A stretch of 64,000 nucleotides of DNA, taken from Oligoflexus sp. (lineage in GTDB: Bacteria; Bdellovibrionota_B; Oligoflexia; Oligoflexales; Oligoflexaceae). The stretch covers positions 47,078 to 111,077 of the forward strand of contig JACMOC010000071.1 in NCBI GenBank assembly GCA_014378195.1, in the 5' to 3' direction. A program made the position numbers and the translations under genes. Each line of letters opens with the position of its first letter. Positions within the stretch are counted from its first letter, which is position 1. Positions 51,651 through 63,477 of this stretch are shown piece by piece. Under the pieces are notes generated by a model. The model was not told where the DNA came from. It made no database searches and saw only the letters and a list, made by a program, of their open reading frames with translations.

Positions 51651-53090
51651 TTAGCGATCCTTGCGATTCGTCGACCACATCGGAGCCGCGAGATCAAAAA
51701 AGCCTTTGACGTCGAGCTTATGCTGGTTGCTGCCGTCGCGGTTCATGATCCAAAGATTGCCCTGGCCTTTGCCATTGCCGTCGCCGATGCGATTGGATTG
51801 AAATGCAATCAACTGACCGTTCGGCGAAAAGCTCGGGCTTTCGTTGTCGCCTGTTTTAAGGGTAAGACGCTCCAGCTGGCTGCCGTCTGGATTCATCATA
51901 AATACGTCCCAACGGTTGATGTCTTTGTCATAACCCGCAAAGACGATTTTATCCGATTCAGGCGACCAGTTAGGAGTCGCATTATACCAGCCCGCATAAG
52001 TCAGGCGTTTATCGCTCGTGACCTTCGGAGCATCGCCTTTTTCAAGGTTGGCCACGAAGATATGAGGATTACCGAAACGTCCAGAAACGAAAGCGATTTG
52101 TTTGCCGTTAGGGGAGAACTTGGGATCGACATCAAGGCCCGCACCCTCGATCAAGAGGCGTTTGCCTATCCCTTGGGGGTTGGTCATGAAGATATCGGTG
52201 TCATCGCCGCGCGAACTTGTATAGGCGATCCATTTACCATCCGCCGAGAAGTTTGCGCCGCTGTCGAGGCCAAGGTTATTGGTTAAACGTCGTTTGATGC
52301 GGGTCTGGGTATCGTAAATGAAGAGCTCGGGATTTTTGAATTCGTAGGATGTGAAGGCGATATAACGGCCATCAGGACTCCACGAAGGGGAAAGGTGAGG
52401 GTATTCGCCTTCGGTGATTTGAATAACGTTAGATCCATCAAAATCACTGATGAAAATCTGTTTTTGAACGCCCTTGGTTTTGCGTGCGACAAAAACAAGG
52501 CGCGAATTAAAGATACCGGACTTGCCTGTATAGGCTTCGAGCAGGTAATCAGCGTACTGACGTATCGTCGCTTTGTAGTCAGTGATGCGGGTGAACTGCT
52601 TGGCAAGAATCTCTTTACCGCGGCTCACATCGATCGTTTTAAACGAAAGAACGAGGCCTTTGCCTGGCTCTTCGCTCAGCGCACCAACTGTCAGGGCTTC
52701 AACACCCAAGGCTCGCCATTGGACATATTCTTCGCCCGTAAGGCCTTTGGAATCACCGACCCAAGCCGTCGACTCCTTAGTTTTGCGTGACTTCGTGAAT
52801 TGATCCCAGGCCCCGGCGTAGGCACCATCGGCAAGGGGAGCAAAAAAGCCCGAGAATACCAGGAGGCGCGAGAGTTCTTGCGAACCTTCCTCCACCAACT
52901 TTTTGCCCTGCGCATCGTTGATAGTTCCGACCGACTGAATGCTCGGCGTGGCGATGACGAGCTTGCGGAAAGCAGGGCTATCGATACTGATAAGCATTGG
53001 CCCGCCGGCTTCAGCCGCGAAGGCCGAAGGGGTCGAGAAAGCTGATAGATTCATGACGAGACTGACGATCAAAAAGATATAACGCTTCAC
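51651..53090 (-). CDS. tolB: Tol-Pal system beta-propeller protein TolB
   Basis: Repeated (P)SWSPDGRYIAFTS / FSPNGKQIAFVS motifs; downstream of tolQ/tolR/TolA-like. Confidence 0.9.
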   Translation of the reverse strand: MKRYIFLIVSLVMNLSAFSTPSAFAAEAGGPMLISIDSPAFRKLVIATPSIQSVGTINDAQGKKLVEEGSQELSRLLVFSGFFAPLADGAYAGAWDQFTKSRKTKESTAWVGDSKGLTGEEYVQWRALGVEALTVGALSEEPGKGLVLSFKTIDVSRGKEILAKQFTRITDYKATIRQYADYLLEAYTGKSGIFNSRLVFVARKTKGVQKQIFISDFDGSNVIQITEGEYPHLSPSWSPDGRYIAFTSYEFKNPELFIYDTQTRIKRRLTNNLGLDSGANFSADGKWIAYTSSRGDDTDIFMTNPQGIGKRLLIEGAGLDVDPKFSPNGKQIAFVSGRFGNPHIFVANLEKGDAPKVTSDKRLTYAGWYNATPNWSPESDKIVFAGYDKDINRWDVFMMNPDGSQLERLTLKTGDNESPSFSPNGQLIAFQSNRIGDGNGKGQGNLWIMNRDGSNQHKLDVKGFFDLAAPMWSTNRKDR

Positions 53091-53104
53091 TAAGCTGAAC
53101 CTCC

Positions 53105-53965
53105 TTAAGGTTTACACTCGACTAATATCGTTTCGCCGGCGAGATCAGCGGGCGGCGGATTGAACGGCGAAGATTTGTTGACCGCACGCACGCAGTAATC
53201 ATCAAACACCGAGTCTCCCGATTCCTGTTTGATCTCAGCCTGCATCAATTGTCCTGTTGCCCCAATCGTGATGGCGAGGATTGCGCGCGCATCGCTCTTT
53301 TGCAATTGATAGGTCGTTGGCAAGGCATAGTTACGGCGAATGACACCTGTGAGATAGCCACGATATTTATTCTGTTCGGAAAGTCCGGCTATGCCACCGG
53401 GTGAGGATACGGCCCCGGGTGTTTTAAGCGCATCACGAATCTGCGCCAACTCCGAATTGTCTTCGGCGGTAAGTTTTCTATTATTCGGTTTGGTTTTGTC
53501 TTTAAGACGTTCGCGAACCAGACGTTCAAGAGCTTCGGATTTTTTGAGTTTCGTCGTGATATCGGGCTTAGTGATTTCCTGGCCGTCTTTCACGGCATCA
53601 GGAATCTTTTTGCCGACGTCTTTGATCGGCTCTTTGGTCGGCTCGAGGCCTTCTTCTTCCTTGGCTTTTTCCTCGACTTTGAAAGTCTTGGTCAACTGGG
53701 GAAGCTGATTGTCCGGAACCAAAACTTCCTTGGCGATCTCAGCCTTGGGGATAACGGTTTTTGGTGCCGATCCCAACTCTGCTTCCGTTAAAAGCTCGGT
53801 ATCCATCGCGTACTCTTCGACGAGAGGCGGCGGCACTCTGAAAATCTTGAGGAAACTCAACGCAAAAATGAGAAGATGGACGCCAGCCGTGACACCGATG
53901 ATGATGTAGAGCGAACGGAATTCGTTGCTTGTTTCATTGGAAACCGCGTTATTCAAGGTGTCCAT
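53105..53965 (-). CDS. TolA/TonB-like periplasmic linker protein
   Basis: N-terminal TM helix, charged/Pro-rich middle, TonB-like C-terminus (YALPTTYQLQKSDARAILAITIGATGQLMQAEIKQESGDSVFDDYCVRAVNKSSPFNPPP). Confidence 0.83.
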   Translation of the reverse strand: MDTLNNAVSNETSNEFRSLYIIIGVTAGVHLLIFALSFLKIFRVPPPLVEEYAMDTELLTEAELGSAPKTVIPKAEIAKEVLVPDNQLPQLTKTFKVEEKAKEEEGLEPTKEPIKDVGKKIPDAVKDGQEITKPDITTKLKKSEALERLVRERLKDKTKPNNRKLTAEDNSELAQIRDALKTPGAVSSPGGIAGLSEQNKYRGYLTGVIRRNYALPTTYQLQKSDARAILAITIGATGQLMQAEIKQESGDSVFDDYCVRAVNKSSPFNPPPADLAGETILVECKP

Positions 53966-53968
53966 ACC

Positions 53969-54406
53969 TCAATTCTTCCGAGCCGGAACTTTGGCTTCGG
54001 TAAGCATGCTGATCTTCGTGACGCCGGCCATACGAGCCGCGCTCATGGCATTCACAACCTTCTCGTAGACGACCGATTTATCGGCGCGTATGTAGATCTC
54101 TTTTTTATCGCGGTTCTGATAAATTTCGGCGAGCCGGATCTCAAGCGCATCGCTTGGAATACCGATCTTCTCGAGGAAATAATCGCCTTTTTGCGAGATC
54201 GAAAGAACCACGCGGTTCTCCGACACGGCCGAGCTACGCGCCTTGCTGCTTGGCAGATTCACGTTGATACCGCCGATTGACAAGGGCGCAGTCACCATAA
54301 AAATGATGAGAAGAACGAGCATGACATCGACAAGAGGCACGATATTGATGTCAGCCATCTGCCCCGAATCGTCTTCATGATCTTCGTGCGAAGTCTTGAA
54401 CTCCAT
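53969..54406 (-). CDS. tolR: ExbD/TolR family protein
   Basis: MADINIVPLVDVMLVLLIIFMVTAPL; YIRADKSVVYEKVV. Confidence 0.92.
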   Translation of the reverse strand: MEFKTSHEDHEDDSGQMADINIVPLVDVMLVLLIIFMVTAPLSIGGINVNLPSSKARSSAVSENRVVLSISQKGDYFLEKIGIPSDALEIRLAEIYQNRDKKEIYIRADKSVVYEKVVNAMSAARMAGVTKISMLTEAKVPARKN

Positions 54407-54415
54407 GACTATTCC

Positions 54416-55297
54416 TCAAATCGGTGCTTGGTTGGAACCGGTTGACTTGCGATCACTCACGAGATAACGACCGACTATATTGAGGAAATCCATCGTGAAT
54501 CCATCGAGCGAACCGACGAGGTTTCGGATACGGGCATTGGCGGTGTTAAAGGCGATAACCGCTGGAATCGCGGCTGCAAGGCCAAAAGCCGTCGCAATGA
54601 GGGCTTCCGAGATACCGGGAGCAACCGCAGCAAGACTTGCGCTGCCGCTTCGCGCGATGCCTTCGAAGGAACTCATGATACCCCAGACGGTTCCAAACAG
54701 ACCGACGAACGGTGCGGCGGAAGCGATAGTGGCGAGGACCGGAAGCAAGGTTTCGAGTTTTTTACGTTCGATACGTTTGGCTTTAACGAGCGAACGATTG
54801 ATGTTTTCCATCGCGGCGCTGATCGCCAGGGTGGAGTTCGGCAAGCTTTCTTTGAGCTGGCTGCCCCGAACGAGTTCGGCATAACCAGTCCGAAAAACTT
54901 CCTTTGCAGGGCTTGGTGCATAGTCACCGAGGCGGCTGTTGAGATCGTTCAAAGAACGACTGTCCCAGAAACTCTTGATGAACACATCGCTGCTCCTGAT
55001 GCTCTTGCGGAGAACGATGATCTTCCAGATCATGATCGCCCAGCTGAGCACAGACGAAACGACAAGGATCGCCAGGACCGAAAAGACCACGATGCCGGCA
55101 TGCCATGCTCTCGAAAAAATCGAAGGCGAATTGATATCCTCGACCTGCACGCTAGTCTCAGATGACGCAGCTGGAACTTCGCTACCCGCTTTGACAGTTT
55201 CTTGAGCCATACAGATCGGACTTAAACCCCACGAAAACGTGAGCATGATTAAGCCAAGAAGAGATACTACGAGCCAATTATGAGCCTTGGTCACCAT
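54416..55297 (-). CDS. tolQ: MotA/TolQ/ExbB proton-channel family protein
   Basis: [61 protein letters not shown]; start codon uncertain. Confidence 0.9.
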
Positions 55298-55483
55298 GGG
55301 ACTAGGAACTCCCTGCATGTTAAAAAAACGATTCTTCATATACTACTACCCACTGGGGGCACTGTCACCCTAAACGGTCCCATTGCTATCACGTTACGTG
55401 TCGTTCGCCAATATTTCTCGCCAATGATTAGGAATTGGTCTAAGAATGAGCCGTTGATCAAGGATCAAAACAAGGGGTTTCTC

Positions 55484-56560
55484 ATGCTCAATCTAGCCGA
55501 ATTAGCATCTGGAAAAGTTCGTTATGACTACACGCGTGACGAAATCCAAGCGATCTATGATCTGCCTATAACACGTCTGATCTTTCTGGCTCAAAGCGTT
55601 CATCATAAATACTTCAAACCGGATGAGATTCAGATGAGCACTCTGCTCTCGATCAAAACCGGGGGTTGCAAAGAAAACTGCGCCTATTGTCCACAGAGTG
55701 CGCATTACTCGACCGGTGTGGATGCCCAGGGGCTCCTGAGCGTATCCACTATAGTCGAAGCCGCGAAAGCCGCCAAGGCCAATGGTTCGAGTCGCTTCTG
55801 CATGGGTGCGGCATGGCGAAGCCCACCGAAAAAAAGCAAACAGTTTGATCAAGTCCTGGAAGCGGTCACGGCGGTCCGGGCCCTCGGCCTTGAGGTCTGT
55901 ACGACCCTTGGAATGCTTGACGACGACCAGGCCCTTGCGCTTAAAGAGGCCGGCGTACACGCCTACAATCACAACCTCGACACCTCTCCGGAATATTACA
56001 AAGACATCATTTCGACTCGCGTTTATCAGGATCGTCTCGACACCTTGAAATCAGTTCGCAAAGCAGGAATGACAGTCTGCTGCGGTGGTATCGTCGGTAT
56101 GGGCGAAGAAAAAGTCGATCGGATCGGTCTCCTCGAACAGCTCAACCAACTAGCGCCCCACCCCGAGTCGGTGCCTATCAACCTCCTCGTTAAAGTCGAG
56201 GGTACGCCTTTGCAAAACGAAGAAGCGATAGACATTTTTGAAATGGTCCGGACTATCGCGACGGCCTGTATCATCATGCCTGAGAGTCGCATCCGCTTGT
56301 CAGCGGGACGCACGCAGATGAGCGACGAAGCTCAGGCGCTCTGTTTTTTAGCCGGAGCGAGCTCGATCTTTACGGGTGATAAACTCCTTACCACCCCTAA
56401 CCCTGGTGATGACGCGGATCACAGGCTCTTCCAAAAACTTGGACTCAAACCCCTTCCTGCCTCTGAAACCGGGACCGAATTTTACGAAAATGAAATCGTA
56501 AAACCAAAAGTAAAGTCATCTTCTTACCAAGCGGATCTCACGTATGAAGCGACTCTCTAA
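55484..56560 (+). CDS. bioB: biotin synthase
   Basis: [56 protein letters not shown]. Confidence 0.95.
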
Positions 56561-56569
56561 GGGGACGAT

Positions 56570-57733
56570 ATGAGTGGCTTCGATATTTTTCGGAACTTGG
56601 CGGAAGACAGACTCAGCAGTATCACGGCGCAAGGTCGCCTGAGAACACTGCGAACCCTTCCTCACCCTGAATTCCATCCCTCCGAGCCACCGTCCGTGAT
56701 TGATCTCACGCATAACGATTATCTTGGATTTCGCTATGATGCTGCCTTTCAATCACGAGCCCTTGAGGCCGCTCGACAGTGGCCTATGGGCGCGGGTGCC
56801 AGTCGGCTCCTTGGCGGGGAACATCGGATCTATGAGGATCTTGAAACAGCGTTCTCACTTTGGAAAGGTGCAGAGGCGAGTCTTTATTTTGCCTCAGGTT
56901 ATGCTGCGAACGAAACTTTGATGAGCGTGCTGGCTCTCTGTGATGCGGAGTTTTTTTCCGACAGCCTCAATCATGCGAGCCTCATCGATGGGATGCGTCT
57001 CGCACGCATCAGGCCCGAATTCAAACACATCTTTCGTCATAATGATCTGGAAGATCTCGAACGAAAGCTTGAAAGATCAACACAGACAGCGAAGGTTGTC
57101 ATCACCGAAAGCCTCTTTAGTATGGATGGCGACGAAGCGCCACTTAAAGCTTTAGAAGCTCTCTGCCAGAGATACCAAACACTCCTCGTCGTCGACGAAG
57201 CCCATGCACTTGGAGTTTACGGGCCCGATGGGTCGGGGCTTATATCCGCGCATAAACTCAACCCCGATACTGTCATCTCCATTAATCCATGTGGCAAAGC
57301 CATGGCAGCAGGCGGAGCTTTGATTTCCGGTCCCAGTTGGCTCCGCCGTCTCCTCATCAATACAGGACGCGGATTTATTTATTCAACAGGCGCATCGCCA
57401 TGGGTAGCTGCAGGCCTTCTAGCTAATTTACAAACCATAAAAGAAGCCCAGGCGCGCAGGGCGCATTTGCATGCGCTTTCAAAACGTGTTCGCCGTGCTC
57501 TCCAAGAATTGGGATATGACACTGGAATGAGTTCCACTCATATTATCCCCATCATAGTCGGCAGCGAGGACCGTAGTCTTCAGCTTGAACGTGCTCTTGC
57601 TGACCGCGATATACGTGCACGCGCAATCAGGCCACCGACCGTTCCCGAGAGACTGTGCCGTCTCAGACTTTCTTTGCACGCGGCTCTCTCGGACGTTGAA
57701 CCGTTGCTTTCAGCCCTAAAGGATATTTCGTGA
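56570..57733 (+). CDS. bioF: 8-amino-7-oxononanoate synthase-like
   Basis: LTHNDYLGFRYD; GAGASRLLGGEHRIYEDLE; VDEAHALGVYGPDGSG; TVISINPCGKAMAAGGALISG. Confidence 0.88.
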   Translation: MSGFDIFRNLAEDRLSSITAQGRLRTLRTLPHPEFHPSEPPSVIDLTHNDYLGFRYDAAFQSRALEAARQWPMGAGASRLLGGEHRIYEDLETAFSLWKGAEASLYFASGYAANETLMSVLALCDAEFFSDSLNHASLIDGMRLARIRPEFKHIFRHNDLEDLERKLERSTQTAKVVITESLFSMDGDEAPLKALEALCQRYQTLLVVDEAHALGVYGPDGSGLISAHKLNPDTVISINPCGKAMAAGGALISGPSWLRRLLINTGRGFIYSTGASPWVAAGLLANLQTIKEAQARRAHLHALSKRVRRALQELGYDTGMSSTHIIPIIVGSEDRSLQLERALADRDIRARAIRPPTVPERLCRLRLSLHAALSDVEPLLSALKDIS

Positions 57734-59703
57734 ATTGCTCGTTTTCACAGGTTTTCGTGACCGCGACCGGTACCGATGTCGGCAAAACATTCATTGCATC
57801 ACTGCTCCTAAGAGCAAATAAGGACTGGTCTTATTGGAAGCCAGTCCAGACCGGTGGCTCCGCTGTCGACCAAATCGCCCTTCACGAAATCGCGCCGCTT
57901 GCCCGTGTGAGTTCCCTCGATAAGTTCGAGTATGACCTCGCGGCTTCGCCCGATCAGGCTGCCATTGCCGAATTTGCCTTAGCGCCAACAGTGAAAGAAC
58001 TTGTTCGAATCTCCGAAGGCCAGAAAAATCTCGTGATTGAAGGCGCTGGTGGACTGATGGTGCCTCTGAACGAAGACAACGAGACTTGGCTTGATTTCCT
58101 TCATGCCACGCGTATGCCCGTTATTCTTGTCGCGACTAGTGGATTAGGCACATTGAATCACACCTTGCTCAGCATCGAAGCTCTGCAGAGTCGATCCATT
58201 CCTATCCTTGCTCTCGTTCTCAACGGACCGGAGCATCGCGGAAACCAGCGCAGTCTCGCGCGGTTTCATCCGAGACTGCCCCTCATCATCGTTCCGCAGC
58301 TTGGTTCTGATACCGCATTAAGCGAATTGGACCGCCTCGGCGAAGTACTCTGGAAACAAATGGGTCAATGGCGTAATGAATCCCAGCGCTCGGAATCCTG
58401 GCTTCGAAAAGACCAGGATTTTGTGTGGCATCCGTATACGCAGCATAAATCAGCGCCGAGCCCCATTCCTATCGTAGCCGCCCGCGGCAGTTACCTTTAT
58501 ACCGATCGTGATGAACGCCTTCTTGATGCCAGCGCCTCCTGGTGGACCTGCTCGATCGGTCATGGCCATCCACGAGTCGCCGCTGCAATTCGAGCCCAAC
58601 AGTCCAAACTCGATCATTGCGGCTTTGGCAATGCCACCCATCAACCGGGATCCGAACTCGCCGCGCGGCTAATCGCGTTGGCCGGACCCCCCTTTACGAA
58701 AGTGTTTTATTCCGACAACGGGTCATGTGCTGTTGAAGTCGCCTTAAAAATGGCTTCGCAAACATGGACCAACCGCGGCGAACCCCAAAAGACGAAGTTT
58801 CTCTATTTTGAAGGCGCCTATCATGGCGATACGTTCGGAGCTATGTCCGTCGCGGAAAGTGGCGGCTTTCATAAAGCGTTTGCGCCTTACGTATTTAAGG
58901 GCATAGAAGCTCCCCTCGTGACATCGCACCCGTCCCGCCTCTCGGAAGGAAGCCGCGAACTCGATGCCGGCAGAGAGCGTCTCAAGAGGATCTTCGAAGA
59001 GCACGCTCACGAACTCGCAGGCGCTATTATCGAGCCGTGGGTCCAGGGCGCGGCGGGCATGATTTTCCAAGACATTGATTGGCTCCGTTATCTCGCCAAA
59101 CTCTGCACGCAGCACAAAGTCTTTCTCATACTCGACGAAGTTTTCACGGGCCTCGGTCGCATTGGCGATAGTTTTGCCTTCAAAAGAGCTGGAATCACAG
59201 CCGATATCCTGTGCCTGGCCAAAGGCCTCACCGGCGGGAACCTTCCGCTCGCTGCAACGCTCTGCACGGACGAGATATTTGAAGCGTTTCTTGATGACGA
59301 CCGATCCAAAGCCTTGCTCCATGGCCATACCTTCACTGCCAATCCCATCGCCTGTGCAGCGGCGCTCACTAGTCTTGACCTCTATCGCGAACTTGATCTG
59401 GTAGGCCGGGCTCGTTCCATAGAGACTCAGTTCAATCTCTGGATAGACGCAGAAAAGACCGCACTTGAACTCATCTCGCCCCGCGCGATAGGGGCTATTC
59501 TGGCTTTTGAATTGGGCGCCGGAGATTATTTTCATTCCGCTGCTTACCGTATACCGGAACTGGGACGCAAACACGGCCTGTTGCTCCGAACGCTCGGCAG
59601 TACCGTTTATTTTGTACCACCTCTGGTTATTTCCGACGAGGAGCTTGGTGAAGGATTGGACAGCCTTAAACGAACCCTTAAAGAGTACCGTGCAAATCAT
59701 TGA
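57730..59703 (+). CDS. bifunctional BioD-BioA fusion (dethiobiotin synthetase / DAPA aminotransferase)
   Basis: N-terminal VFVTATGTDVGKTFIASLLL..YWKPVQTGG, VIEGAGGLMVPL; C-terminal DFVWHPYTQHK, SASWWTCSIGHGHP, LAKGLTGGNLPLAATL, GHTFTANPIACAAA in one ORF. Confidence 0.92.
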   Translation: MNCSFSQVFVTATGTDVGKTFIASLLLRANKDWSYWKPVQTGGSAVDQIALHEIAPLARVSSLDKFEYDLAASPDQAAIAEFALAPTVKELVRISEGQKNLVIEGAGGLMVPLNEDNETWLDFLHATRMPVILVATSGLGTLNHTLLSIEALQSRSIPILALVLNGPEHRGNQRSLARFHPRLPLIIVPQLGSDTALSELDRLGEVLWKQMGQWRNESQRSESWLRKDQDFVWHPYTQHKSAPSPIPIVAARGSYLYTDRDERLLDASASWWTCSIGHGHPRVAAAIRAQQSKLDHCGFGNATHQPGSELAARLIALAGPPFTKVFYSDNGSCAVEVALKMASQTWTNRGEPQKTKFLYFEGAYHGDTFGAMSVAESGGFHKAFAPYVFKGIEAPLVTSHPSRLSEGSRELDAGRERLKRIFEEHAHELAGAIIEPWVQGAAGMIFQDIDWLRYLAKLCTQHKVFLILDEVFTGLGRIGDSFAFKRAGITADILCLAKGLTGGNLPLAATLCTDEIFEAFLDDDRSKALLHGHTFTANPIACAAALTSLDLYRELDLVGRARSIETQFNLWIDAEKTALELISPRAIGAILAFELGAGDYFHSAAYRIPELGRKHGLLLRTLGSTVYFVPPLVISDEELGEGLDSLKRTLKEYRANH

Positions 59704-59735: not shown

Positions 59736-59773
59736 AAAAACCCCGGCCCACTTAACAGTGACCAGGGTTTTTC
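59736..59773 (-). terminator. terminator between convergent bioDA and lipoprotein gene
   Basis: aaaaaccccgg ... ccagggttttt inverted repeat in the convergent intergenic region. Confidence 0.6.
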
Positions 59774-59793: not shown

Positions 59794-60498
59794 TTAGTGT
59801 TGAACGATATGAGTCAGTTCTTTAGTGGTGATAGTCGTTGTCAGGTTGTTATTCCAACGCGAGTTCGAACCGTAGCTGACAGTCTGGATGGATTTTGCTT
59901 CCACGTTGCTGCCGTCTTTCAAAGTCCATGTTTCCGAGCTGCGGAAGTTGTTCATGCCGCGTGTACCGACTTTAAAGCTCGTGTAGTCAACAGTAGAACG
60001 ACCTGCACCGATCGTGATGTCCTGTGATCCGATTTGTGATGTGAAATAAGCCGTCTGAGGTGTGTTCAAGAGATTTTTTGTTTGAGCACAGGTGTTGAGG
60101 AAAGCGGATTTTGTTGTTGTTTCAGTAGTGACGACTGGAGACATTCCATCACGGGTGATGGTGTGTGTTGCCGAAACATAGGAATCGTTTGAGATTGTAT
60201 AGACATAAACATCGTTGAAGTATGTCGAGCTCATGATCTGGCCATTTGCGTCGCTCACTACTTCCGAACCGTGGAAATCGAGTTCGAGACCATTTCTGTA
60301 GCTTGAAACATGACGTGTCCAAGCGTCCGAACAGTTGTCGACATAACCAGCAACAGAGTTTGTAAGGAAAGTATCGGTGAGTCGCGCTGAATTGATAGCA
60401 GCAGGACCGTGGTTGTTGTCAGAACTTCCACAACCGACAAGTGTAACGGAGAGCAAAGAAGCAGAAAGAACGATTTTAAGACTCGAAATAACGTTCAT
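59794..60498 (-). CDS. lipoprotein, tandem paralog 1
   Basis: LLSVTLVGCGSSDNN lipobox; aligns with 60655..61455 (CSDAWTRHVSSYRNGL / CEASWTHYVATHPVGL). Confidence 0.7.
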   Translation of the reverse strand: MNVISSLKIVLSASLLSVTLVGCGSSDNNHGPAAINSARLTDTFLTNSVAGYVDNCSDAWTRHVSSYRNGLELDFHGSEVVSDANGQIMSSTYFNDVYVYTISNDSYVSATHTITRDGMSPVVTTETTTKSAFLNTCAQTKNLLNTPQTAYFTSQIGSQDITIGAGRSTVDYTSFKVGTRGMNNFRSSETWTLKDGSNVEAKSIQTVSYGSNSRWNNNLTTTITTKELTHIVQH

Positions 60499-60594
60499 AG
60501 GAATATCCCTTCGGAACAAAGTGACGTATTAATGTGTTGACAGGCCGACTTCTAAAGCACTCTGTCAATTTGGTCAAGTCATTTCGAACAGAAA

Positions 60595-60631
60595 AATAAA
60601 GCCCAAGAAATCTTATTGATTTCTTGGGCTT
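60595..60631 (-). terminator. rho-independent terminator between the paralogs
   Basis: Perfect 14-bp inverted repeat aagcccaagaaatc-ttatt-gatttcttgggctt; minus strand followed by tatttttc. Confidence 0.85.
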
Positions 60632-60654
60632 GTATTCACGAAATTTGAATCAAA

Positions 60655-61455
60655 TCAAGGACGGAACAGTTTAACGAGTTCAGTTGTGATCGTTCCCGTC
60701 ATGGATGCTCCACTGACATCCGTCGCTGTATCCAAGACTGATTTTACAAGGATACTGCTGCCATCTTGTAGAGACCACGATTGAAAATTGCTCTGACCAG
60801 TCGAAAGGTTGGTCGCCTGACCGCGCACATAATCTGTAGTGAATGTTCCTGCGGTCACAGTAACTGACTGTGTGGATCGCTCCAGGACCTGCACGGAAAT
60901 ATCAGCCGGAACACCCGTAATTGGTCCTGAAATAGAACCGCTTAAACGGGAACATCCCGAAACAAACTCATCCTTGCCCAGCTCAGTCGTTGTTACGATC
61001 TGACGGCGAAGACCTTCGACGTTTACGGTTCGGTTCGAGACAACATGTGTTGAATTTGATTCCGTGATGTTTTCTTCATAACTCGACACCGACGATTGCA
61101 AAACTGCGCCTGCACTGTCTTTGGTTGTTTGCGTAGTTTTGTAACCCATCACAAGTCCAACTGGATGGGTTGCAACATAATGAGTCCAAGACGCTTCACA
61201 ATCGGCCGGAGCGGGCGCAGGACTCGTTGGTGCTCCACTATTTGAGCCGACTGGTGTCGCAGTCGCTGAGCCATCAGTCGAACCCGTGACAGCCGTACCC
61301 GTTGTCCCTGGTGTCCCGTTGGTTGTGGGTACTGTTGTTGTAGGGGCTGGCGCAGGCGTCGAGGATTTGCTCGAACTTCCGCAACCGACTAAAGCCGTCG
61401 CGCCTGAAACGCTTAAGCTGAACAGCATGGCAGAAGTCCATGGTCTAATCTTCAT
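60655..61455 (-). CDS. lipoprotein, tandem paralog 2, with Thr/Pro-rich linker
   Basis: GATALVGCGSSSKSS lipobox; low-complexity linker; C-terminus homologous to 59794..60498. Confidence 0.7.
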   Translation of the reverse strand: MKIRPWTSAMLFSLSVSGATALVGCGSSSKSSTPAPAPTTTVPTTNGTPGTTGTAVTGSTDGSATATPVGSNSGAPTSPAPAPADCEASWTHYVATHPVGLVMGYKTTQTTKDSAGAVLQSSVSSYEENITESNSTHVVSNRTVNVEGLRRQIVTTTELGKDEFVSGCSRLSGSISGPITGVPADISVQVLERSTQSVTVTAGTFTTDYVRGQATNLSTGQSNFQSWSLQDGSSILVKSVLDTATDVSGASMTGTITTELVKLFRP

Positions 61456-61690: not shown

Positions 61691-62971
61691 ATGCGAAAAG
61701 CCCATAGTCTTTATCATAAGTTGATTGAGCCCTTTCAGCCTTCATTTGCCGAAGGTTATTCCACTGAGGCCGAAAAAAGCAATCTTCTCATCCGCATCCG
61801 CTGGATACTCATCGCGATGCAGCTCCTCGTGATCGCCCCGGCGTTGATGTTCGAATATTTGCTCAGGCCCAATCTTTGGCCTTATCTTGGAGTGGTTGCG
61901 AGCCTACTGGTCTTCAATCTTGCGGCCAAACGGTTTCTCCAAACGCATCCTCTATCGTTATCCATCCAGCTCTCTGTCGATCTCATCGCGCTTTGCACCC
62001 TTCTGATACTGACGGCTGGTTGTCACAACCCTTTTTCTTCGCTGCTTTTTATCAGTGCTATCCTCGGTCCCATGTTTTTAGCCAGACCCTGGGCCGTGGC
62101 CTACCTCGTTGAAGCTGCGATTGGCCTCGTCATTGTCTGTTATTATACCGAGCCCCTGCTTTTGAACGCCCATGGTGAGGTCGTATCATCCGGCGTGACT
62201 ATCACCGCTAAAATCATCGTGCTTTTCAGTCTCGGCTGCCTCACTCTTTGGCTCAAAGCTTGTCTCGACAGATCGCAGAGCCGCTACGAAACACTTTATA
62301 AACAGAGGCAACGCCTTAATAGCTTCCGTGCCGTCGGCATAGTGTCCGCTCAACTTTCGCACGAACTCTCGACGCCTCTGAACACTCTGAAAATAATGAT
62401 GGATCGCATGAAACGCGACGAGCGCCTAAAGGCCAGCCACGACCTGCTTATAGCCGAGGCCGCCCTCGCCCAATGCGAAAGTACGATTCGTGATCTGTTT
62501 GACTGCAGCGTCGATGCCGGATCTTTGTCGTTTAAAGAGACGAATCTCGGCAATTTCATAAGGTCGGTCTGTGATAACTGGGCCCTCGATTTCCCGGGGG
62601 TGCAACTGGCGTTTGGAATCGATCCCAAAGCTGACGGTTTGAATTACCAGATTCCAGCCACGCCTTTTGCCCAAGCTGTGCTCGACATCCTCGACAATGC
62701 AAAAGAAGCCTCCGAAACCGATCACGTCGCGATCACCGTCGATATCGAGGTCCAAACGGATGCGATCCTGATTTCTTTTTCGGATCGGGGCCGCGGCCTG
62801 GATAAATCGATACTCAACCGCATCGGCGAACCTTTCGTCTCAACCAAATCCACAGGCACCGGACTCGGCGTTTACAATGCTTCGACTCTGCTTGAAGCGC
62901 TCGGCGGAAGCCTTGGTTTGGCTGATCGCATGGGTGGAGGGACACAAGTGTCGATGGTGCTGCCGCGATGA
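61691..62971 (+). CDS. RegB/PrrB-like sensor histidine kinase
   Basis: Multi-TM N-terminus with LTAGCHNPFSS (RegB GGxxNPF-like); H-box AQLSHELSTPLNTLKI; GTGLGVYNAS ATP-binding motif. Confidence 0.8.
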   Translation: MRKAHSLYHKLIEPFQPSFAEGYSTEAEKSNLLIRIRWILIAMQLLVIAPALMFEYLLRPNLWPYLGVVASLLVFNLAAKRFLQTHPLSLSIQLSVDLIALCTLLILTAGCHNPFSSLLFISAILGPMFLARPWAVAYLVEAAIGLVIVCYYTEPLLLNAHGEVVSSGVTITAKIIVLFSLGCLTLWLKACLDRSQSRYETLYKQRQRLNSFRAVGIVSAQLSHELSTPLNTLKIMMDRMKRDERLKASHDLLIAEAALAQCESTIRDLFDCSVDAGSLSFKETNLGNFIRSVCDNWALDFPGVQLAFGIDPKADGLNYQIPATPFAQAVLDILDNAKEASETDHVAITVDIEVQTDAILISFSDRGRGLDKSILNRIGEPFVSTKSTGTGLGVYNASTLLEALGGSLGLADRMGGGTQVSMVLPR

Positions 62972-63477
62972 AAAACCTCCTGGTGATAGAAGACGACGTC
63001 ATGTTTCGCGAAGCGATCAGGCGGGAATTTGAAGACAGAAATTATGCCGTGACGGCAAGCGCCACCCTCAAAGAGTTAAGGGCGCTTCACAGCATTCAGC
63101 CAAACTTTGCTATTGTCGACCTCAAACTCAAAGGCGAGAGCGGACTCGATGCTGTAGCTCACATCAAAAAAGAATATCCCGACTGTCAGACGATCGTACT
63201 CACGGGTTATGGGAGTATCGCCACGGCTGTCCAGGCTGTAAAGCTCGGGGCTTCGAATTATATATCCAAACCCGCATCAATCGATGATATCGAAAAAGCC
63301 CTGACCGGTGTTTATACTCCGGCCGAACCCGTAAATCCCCATAATCTTTATCGCCATGAAAGGGAGTACATCGAAAAGGTCATTCAGGACTTTGACGGTA
63401 ATATTTCCATGGCGGCGAAGGCCCTCGGCATCCACCGCCAGAGCCTGCAGCGCAAACTCCGCAAGTTCATCTCTTAA
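62968..63477 (+). CDS. RegA/PrrA-like response regulator with C-terminal Fis-type HTH
   Basis: LLVIEDDVMFREAI; FAIVDLKLKGESGLD; VLTGYGSIATAVQAVKLGASNYISKPA; GNISMAAKALGIHRQSLQRKLRK. Confidence 0.87.
   Translation: MKNLLVIEDDVMFREAIRREFEDRNYAVTASATLKELRALHSIQPNFAIVDLKLKGESGLDAVAHIKKEYPDCQTIVLTGYGSIATAVQAVKLGASNYISKPASIDDIEKALTGVYTPAEPVNPHNLYRHEREYIEKVIQDFDGNISMAAKALGIHRQSLQRKLRKFIS

Follow-up and report, generated by a model that had tools for sequence, protein, structure and literature searches.

A bioD-bioA gene fusion in a bacterial biotin operon, and the likeness of its relatives to the plant BIO3-BIO1 enzyme

In a stretch of 64,000 nucleotides from Oligoflexus sp. (here referred to as the window), the third gene of a biotin operon, bioDA, very probably encodes a working bifunctional enzyme that originated by in-frame fusion of adjoining bioD and bioA genes in a bioB-bioF-bioD-bioA operon, its activity being predicted from the sequence. 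ORF reading of the window gives 657 codons without an internal stop at 57730-59703 on the plus strand. The operon and the parts of the fused gene are as follows.

55484 to 56560, plus strand: bioB, biotin synthase (radical SAM; TIGR00433, 386 bits vs a cut-off of 225)
56570 to 57733, plus strand: bioF, 8-amino-7-oxononanoate (KAPA) synthase (TIGR00858 as best match, and position)
57730 to 59703, plus strand: bioDA, fused dethiobiotin synthetase and DAPA aminotransferase of 657 aa, GTG start
57748 to 58344, plus strand: BioD domain, about residues 7-205 (TIGR00347; P-loop GTDVGKT with K19 and T20; K37, D47, and E104)
58345 to 58404, plus strand: BioD-BioA junction of about 20 residues, about residues 205-225 (AlphaFold2 model)
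58405 to 59700, plus strand: BioA domain, about residues 226-657 (TIGR00508; PLP lysine K498)
59737 to 59773, no strand assigned: inverted repeat AAAAACCC...GGGTTTTT (read from sequence)

An earlier note on this DNA had described a single ORF with a complete BioD and a complete BioA in a bioB-bioF-bioDA operon. The unbroken frame, the matches of both halves to their profiles, and the upstream bioB and bioF on the same strand bear out this description, and the junction that it placed at 58360-58420 is close to the one we found at about 58342-58404.

The three genes follow one another tightly in the order bioB-bioF-bioDA on one strand. As read from the sequence, the likely bioB start is the ATG at 55484, with an AAGGGG-type ribosome site just 5' of it, and the TGA stop of bioF and the GTG start of bioDA share a 4-nt overlap. 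bioF scored 343 bits against TIGR00858, which is under the cut-off of 426, and its slot between bioB and bioDA is kept across the class. The inverted repeat is a possible two-way terminator closing the operon. We found no match to the published BirA box consensus within the window and no Rfam RNA, including riboswitches, at the bio operon. bioDA is the sole BioD or BioA gene detected in the assembly (85 contigs); with the assembly 82% complete, another, stand-alone bioD or bioA could still lie elsewhere. Divergent from bioB, genes for TolQ, TolR, a TolA-like protein, and TolB occupy 51651-55339 on the minus strand, and two other genomes of the family (G005 and G006) have frames of similar size in the same places. 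On the other side of the operon, two adjoining genes at 59794-61455 on the minus strand encode small putative lipoproteins (241 and 266 aa) that resemble each other and match no Pfam family, and 61691-63477 on the plus strand encodes a membrane sensor kinase and a response regulator with a Fis-type helix-turn-helix in a layout resembling RegB/RegA (PrrB/PrrA).

Both halves of the protein passed curated cut-offs. The BioD half scored 104.7 bits against TIGR00347 (cut-off 83.3), with Pfam AAA_26 over residues 7-191, and the BioA half scored 483 bits against TIGR00508 (cut-off 405) over residues 232-650. Thus, the domains match the families of the separate BioA (Escherichia coli and Mycobacterium tuberculosis) and BioD enzymes, yet they are fused. 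In the alignments, BioD residues K19, T20, K37, D47, and E104 are invariant across the 13 fusions of the window type (type 1), and W52, W53, Y144, D147, D245, R253, K274, R391, and Y398 of E. coli BioA correspond to W271, W272, Y364, D367, D469, R477, K498, R620, and Y627 of BioDA. The catalytic residues of the BioA domain match those of both E. coli and Arabidopsis; for all of these BioA and BioD residues, we take the functional roles to be those generally known for the E. coli enzymes. The AlphaFold2 model of BioDA has a pLDDT of 84 and a pTM of 0.73, and the junction in it extends the C-terminal helix of BioD, with pLDDT in this region falling below 50 only at residues 215-221.

The bioDA frame is unbroken in all four other members of the genus and both other members of the family (G001-G006), down to 46% identity. 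Although the window comes from a draft assembly, in which two genes might be merged by a sequencing or assembly error, the recurrence of the identical frame in these six independent genomes, as well as in other families of the order, makes such an artifact extremely improbable. With the catalytic residues of both domains also kept, we rule out both an assembly error and a pseudogene. Relative to the nearest relatives, dS is saturated, and dN is 0.15-0.18 in each domain and higher in the 26-codon junction, a pattern consistent with purifying selection on both domains. We considered a conserved internal start for free BioA and rejected it because the in-frame ATG at codon 211 is absent from the two nearest relatives. 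We leave room for some free BioA made in the window organism by internal initiation (the codon 211 ATG; also the 4-nt overlap with bioF).

In the proposed pathway, the C-terminal, PLP-dependent BioA domain would aminate KAPA, giving DAPA, whose ureido ring the N-terminal BioD domain would close with ATP and CO2 to yield dethiobiotin, and BioB would then turn dethiobiotin into biotin. Class III aminotransferases work as dimers; therefore, the protein is likely to assemble as a dimer of BioA domains with two BioD domains attached. In a fused chain, the two activities would be produced co-translationally and in a 1:1 ratio, and DAPA might pass between them over a short distance. By analogy with the plant enzyme, for which Cobessi et al. 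reportedly presented evidence in 2012, channeling of DAPA is plausible in BioDA. For the preceding steps, the absence of bioC that the earlier note had reported for the window extends to the whole assembly, in which, as in 16 relatives, we found no canonical BioC at or above the NCBIfam cut-off. PMC6593275 describes genomes that have bioF, bioA, bioD, and bioB yet lack any known pimeloyl route.

Next to the window protein we set the bifunctional BIO3-BIO1 enzyme of Arabidopsis (PDB 4A0F, 4A0G, 4A0H, and 4A0R), to which the earlier note had likened it. The two share a chain in which BioD precedes BioA, two consecutive reactions, and the catalytic residues, and the whole Arabidopsis chain is the top structural match of the BioDA model (TMq 0.77 vs 0.58 for BioA alone), an arrangement of domains that the model may have taken over from the Arabidopsis structure in its training data. 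Thus, the likeness holds for layout and domain order. It does not extend further, as the window protein is nearer to ordinary bacterial BioA: its BioA domain scored 285 bits to E. coli BioA vs 174 bits to plant BIO3-BIO1 (4a0f), with 29.5% identity to Arabidopsis in this domain. We defined plant-type insertions as 44 alignment columns filled in at least eight of nine plant-type rows and in no more than 25% of the remaining rows; every insertion block shown is a gap in the window protein. Judged by these features, the window protein is not of the plant-type BIO3-BIO1 subfamily, and it also differs from the plant and fungal enzymes in being encoded in a bacterial operon.

To place the fusion within its phylum, we used a BioD search of 58 genomes, all of one class. 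BioD was present in 30 of these, and BioDA is fused in 21 of the 30: 13 genomes have the fusion in the fashion of the window, and 8 genomes of family f12, in a sister order, have fused frames of another kind; the remaining 9 have separate genes. One genome in which BioA reaches the contig end (G014) was excluded from the fused/separate tally. The 13 fusions are distributed over families f1 (7, including the window), f3 (2), f4 (2), f6 (1), and f11 (1). Where the genes are separate in the class, they mostly stand in the order bioB-bioF-bioD-bioA and the bioD and bioA frames overlap, so that a lost stop or a frameshift would suffice for fusion. Within genus g20, bioDA is fused in G029 (L080:7193-9157) and split into bioD and bioA in its relative G040 (L091). 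The G029 fusion (family f11) groups with split G040, and forcing it together with the type 1 fusions was rejected (p 2e-8), which rules out one origin for all fusions of the phylum. The G029 fusion is thus recent and independent and could show how fusion happens.

The fused protein of the sister order (e.g., L068:5585-7792, minus strand) is collinear with Arabidopsis BIO3-BIO1 (545 bits, E = 1.7e-162); separate bacterial BioA proteins in PDB scored at most 138.5 bits against it. It contains the plant-type insertions and is 41-44% identical to Arabidopsis in the BioA domain. The frames comprise 723-967 aa in the eight genomes of family f12 (L065-L072; L068:5585-10064 in G049), and in seven of the eight the gene lies, without introns, inside a bioB-bioF-bioDA operon. 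Given this location in a bacterial bioB-bioF operon, the gene is bacterial and not contamination. The genomes carrying it have a GC content of 27-60%, several sister-order members being at 27-31%. The AlphaFold2 model of the protein (pLDDT 69) was too poor for use. The sister-order form thus has gene order, domain order, and class in common with the window, and it differs in its collinearity with Arabidopsis, in the insertions, and in the long branch that divides it from the window type. A plant-type profile found no holder outside family f12 in two possibly overlapping samples (383 and 385 genomes).

How are these forms related? The trees, in which Arabidopsis is the sole eukaryotic sequence, favor without proving one fusion event from which the window, sister-order, and eukaryotic forms all descend. 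One version of this history, which we regard as a real possibility while stopping short of calling it probable, is that fusion occurred once in the ancestor of the phylum and gave rise to the window type and to the plant type of the sister order, from which eukaryotic BIO3-BIO1 derived via gene transfer. In its favor, the type 1 fusions and the plant type form a single clade in the BioA tree (96/89, or 95/93 once the window protein is added), the joined BioD and BioA tree likewise unites the window and plant types (95/88), and in both trees Arabidopsis is placed adjacent to or within the sister-order sequences (97/70 and 87/65, respectively). The confinement of the plant type to family f12 in the sampled genomes and its position in a bacterial operon point the same way. 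However, the plant-type stem is long (1.2-1.75), and the AU tests rejected neither a placement of the plant type elsewhere (p 0.21-0.23) nor a bacterial plant-type clade apart from Arabidopsis (p 0.32). Moreover, the BioD tree alone gives no signal on the grouping, and support for the window and sister-order operons together in the bioB and bioF tree is 46/3. Taken as a whole, the scenario that the window retains a little-changed form and the sister order a changed form of one phylum-ancestral fusion, and that plant BIO3-BIO1 was acquired from that lineage, together with other eukaryotic ones if these have the same origin, is a tentative one and somewhat doubtful.

Alternatively, the plant-type fusion of the sister order may have come from a eukaryote, displacing the local bioD and bioA on arrival, and would then be unrelated to the fusion in the window. 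The collinearity with BIO3-BIO1 and the insertions absent from other BioA proteins fit such a transfer, as does the patchy distribution in family f12, where 8 of 14 genomes have the plant type, G054 has unrelated split genes, and no BioD was seen in 5. On the other hand, the gene sits in a bacterial operon in seven of eight genomes, has no introns, and occurs over a wide range of GC content, and the most distant bacterial pairs are 37-41% identical, a divergence as deep as that to Arabidopsis. We therefore consider transfer from a eukaryote unlikely. No relative of plant-type BioDA was found in viral contigs, and a contig scan with the window protein as the single query gave distant aminotransferases only. 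Two IMG/VR contigs listed as viral (L133 and L134) have overlapping bioD and bioA in separate frames and are possibly host DNA.

Beyond the phylum, we analyzed a sample of 383 genomes using a BioA match threshold of E <= 1e-105. Full-length, stop-free fusions were present in 5 of 122 BioA-bearing genomes (G322, G341, G204, G262, and G120). G114 and G105, in which BioA lies in open frames of 827-885 aa with no further Pfam domain, were not scored as fusions. In the phylum of G120 and G262, 21 of 24 genomes are fused (1 of the 21 matches begins at profile position 48), and the small phylum of G322 has at least two fused genomes. Among the matches listed for the phylum of G204 and G341, the fusion occurs only in their family (f160), and among the 34 matches listed at E <= 1e-140 for 400 relatives of G109, from another large group, there were no fusions. 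Bacterial BioDA fusion thus occurs in at least four phyla and is rare overall but recurrent, being fixed in some groups. The statement in the earlier note that the genes are usually separate in bacteria stands for the sampled genomes outside the phylum; the fusion is nevertheless commoner than assumed there and the rule in two groups. The note had also held that presence in many bacterial phyla would make the fusion common; this applies in part, given at least four phyla and rarity elsewhere.

The fusions of the other phyla have the domain order and single frame of the window gene, while their BioA halves fall in a clade distinct from that of the window type; one joint event gave p 0.18. Their origin or origins are separate and may lie in one or several events. 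With G029 independent of type 1 and the other-phyla fusions in another BioA clade, no fewer than three fusions must have occurred independently. Such repeated fusion in several phyla argues that the adjacency of the BioA and BioD steps is repeatedly useful or easily reached, because split relatives have overlapping bioD and bioA in the same order. In L117, L118, and L119 (G322, G341, and G204), with rows assigned by alignment column order, several sequences seem to have a residue other than tryptophan at E. coli W52 and other than tyrosine at Y398, possibly reflecting a different amino donor or substrate pocket.

In the literature we searched, mainly openly accessible papers, we found no description of a bacterial BioDA fusion; automatic database annotations may well exist. 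A BioD-BioA fusion has been listed for an oomycete (PMC2705460). The published statement that the enzymes are fused in plants and fungi and separate in bacteria (PMC9309667, 2022; PMC10829540, 2024) does not hold for at least four bacterial phyla. Bacterial bioDA genes would provide easily expressed model enzymes for probing DAPA channeling, and with a plant-type gene present in the sister order, it becomes possible to test where the eukaryotic enzyme came from.
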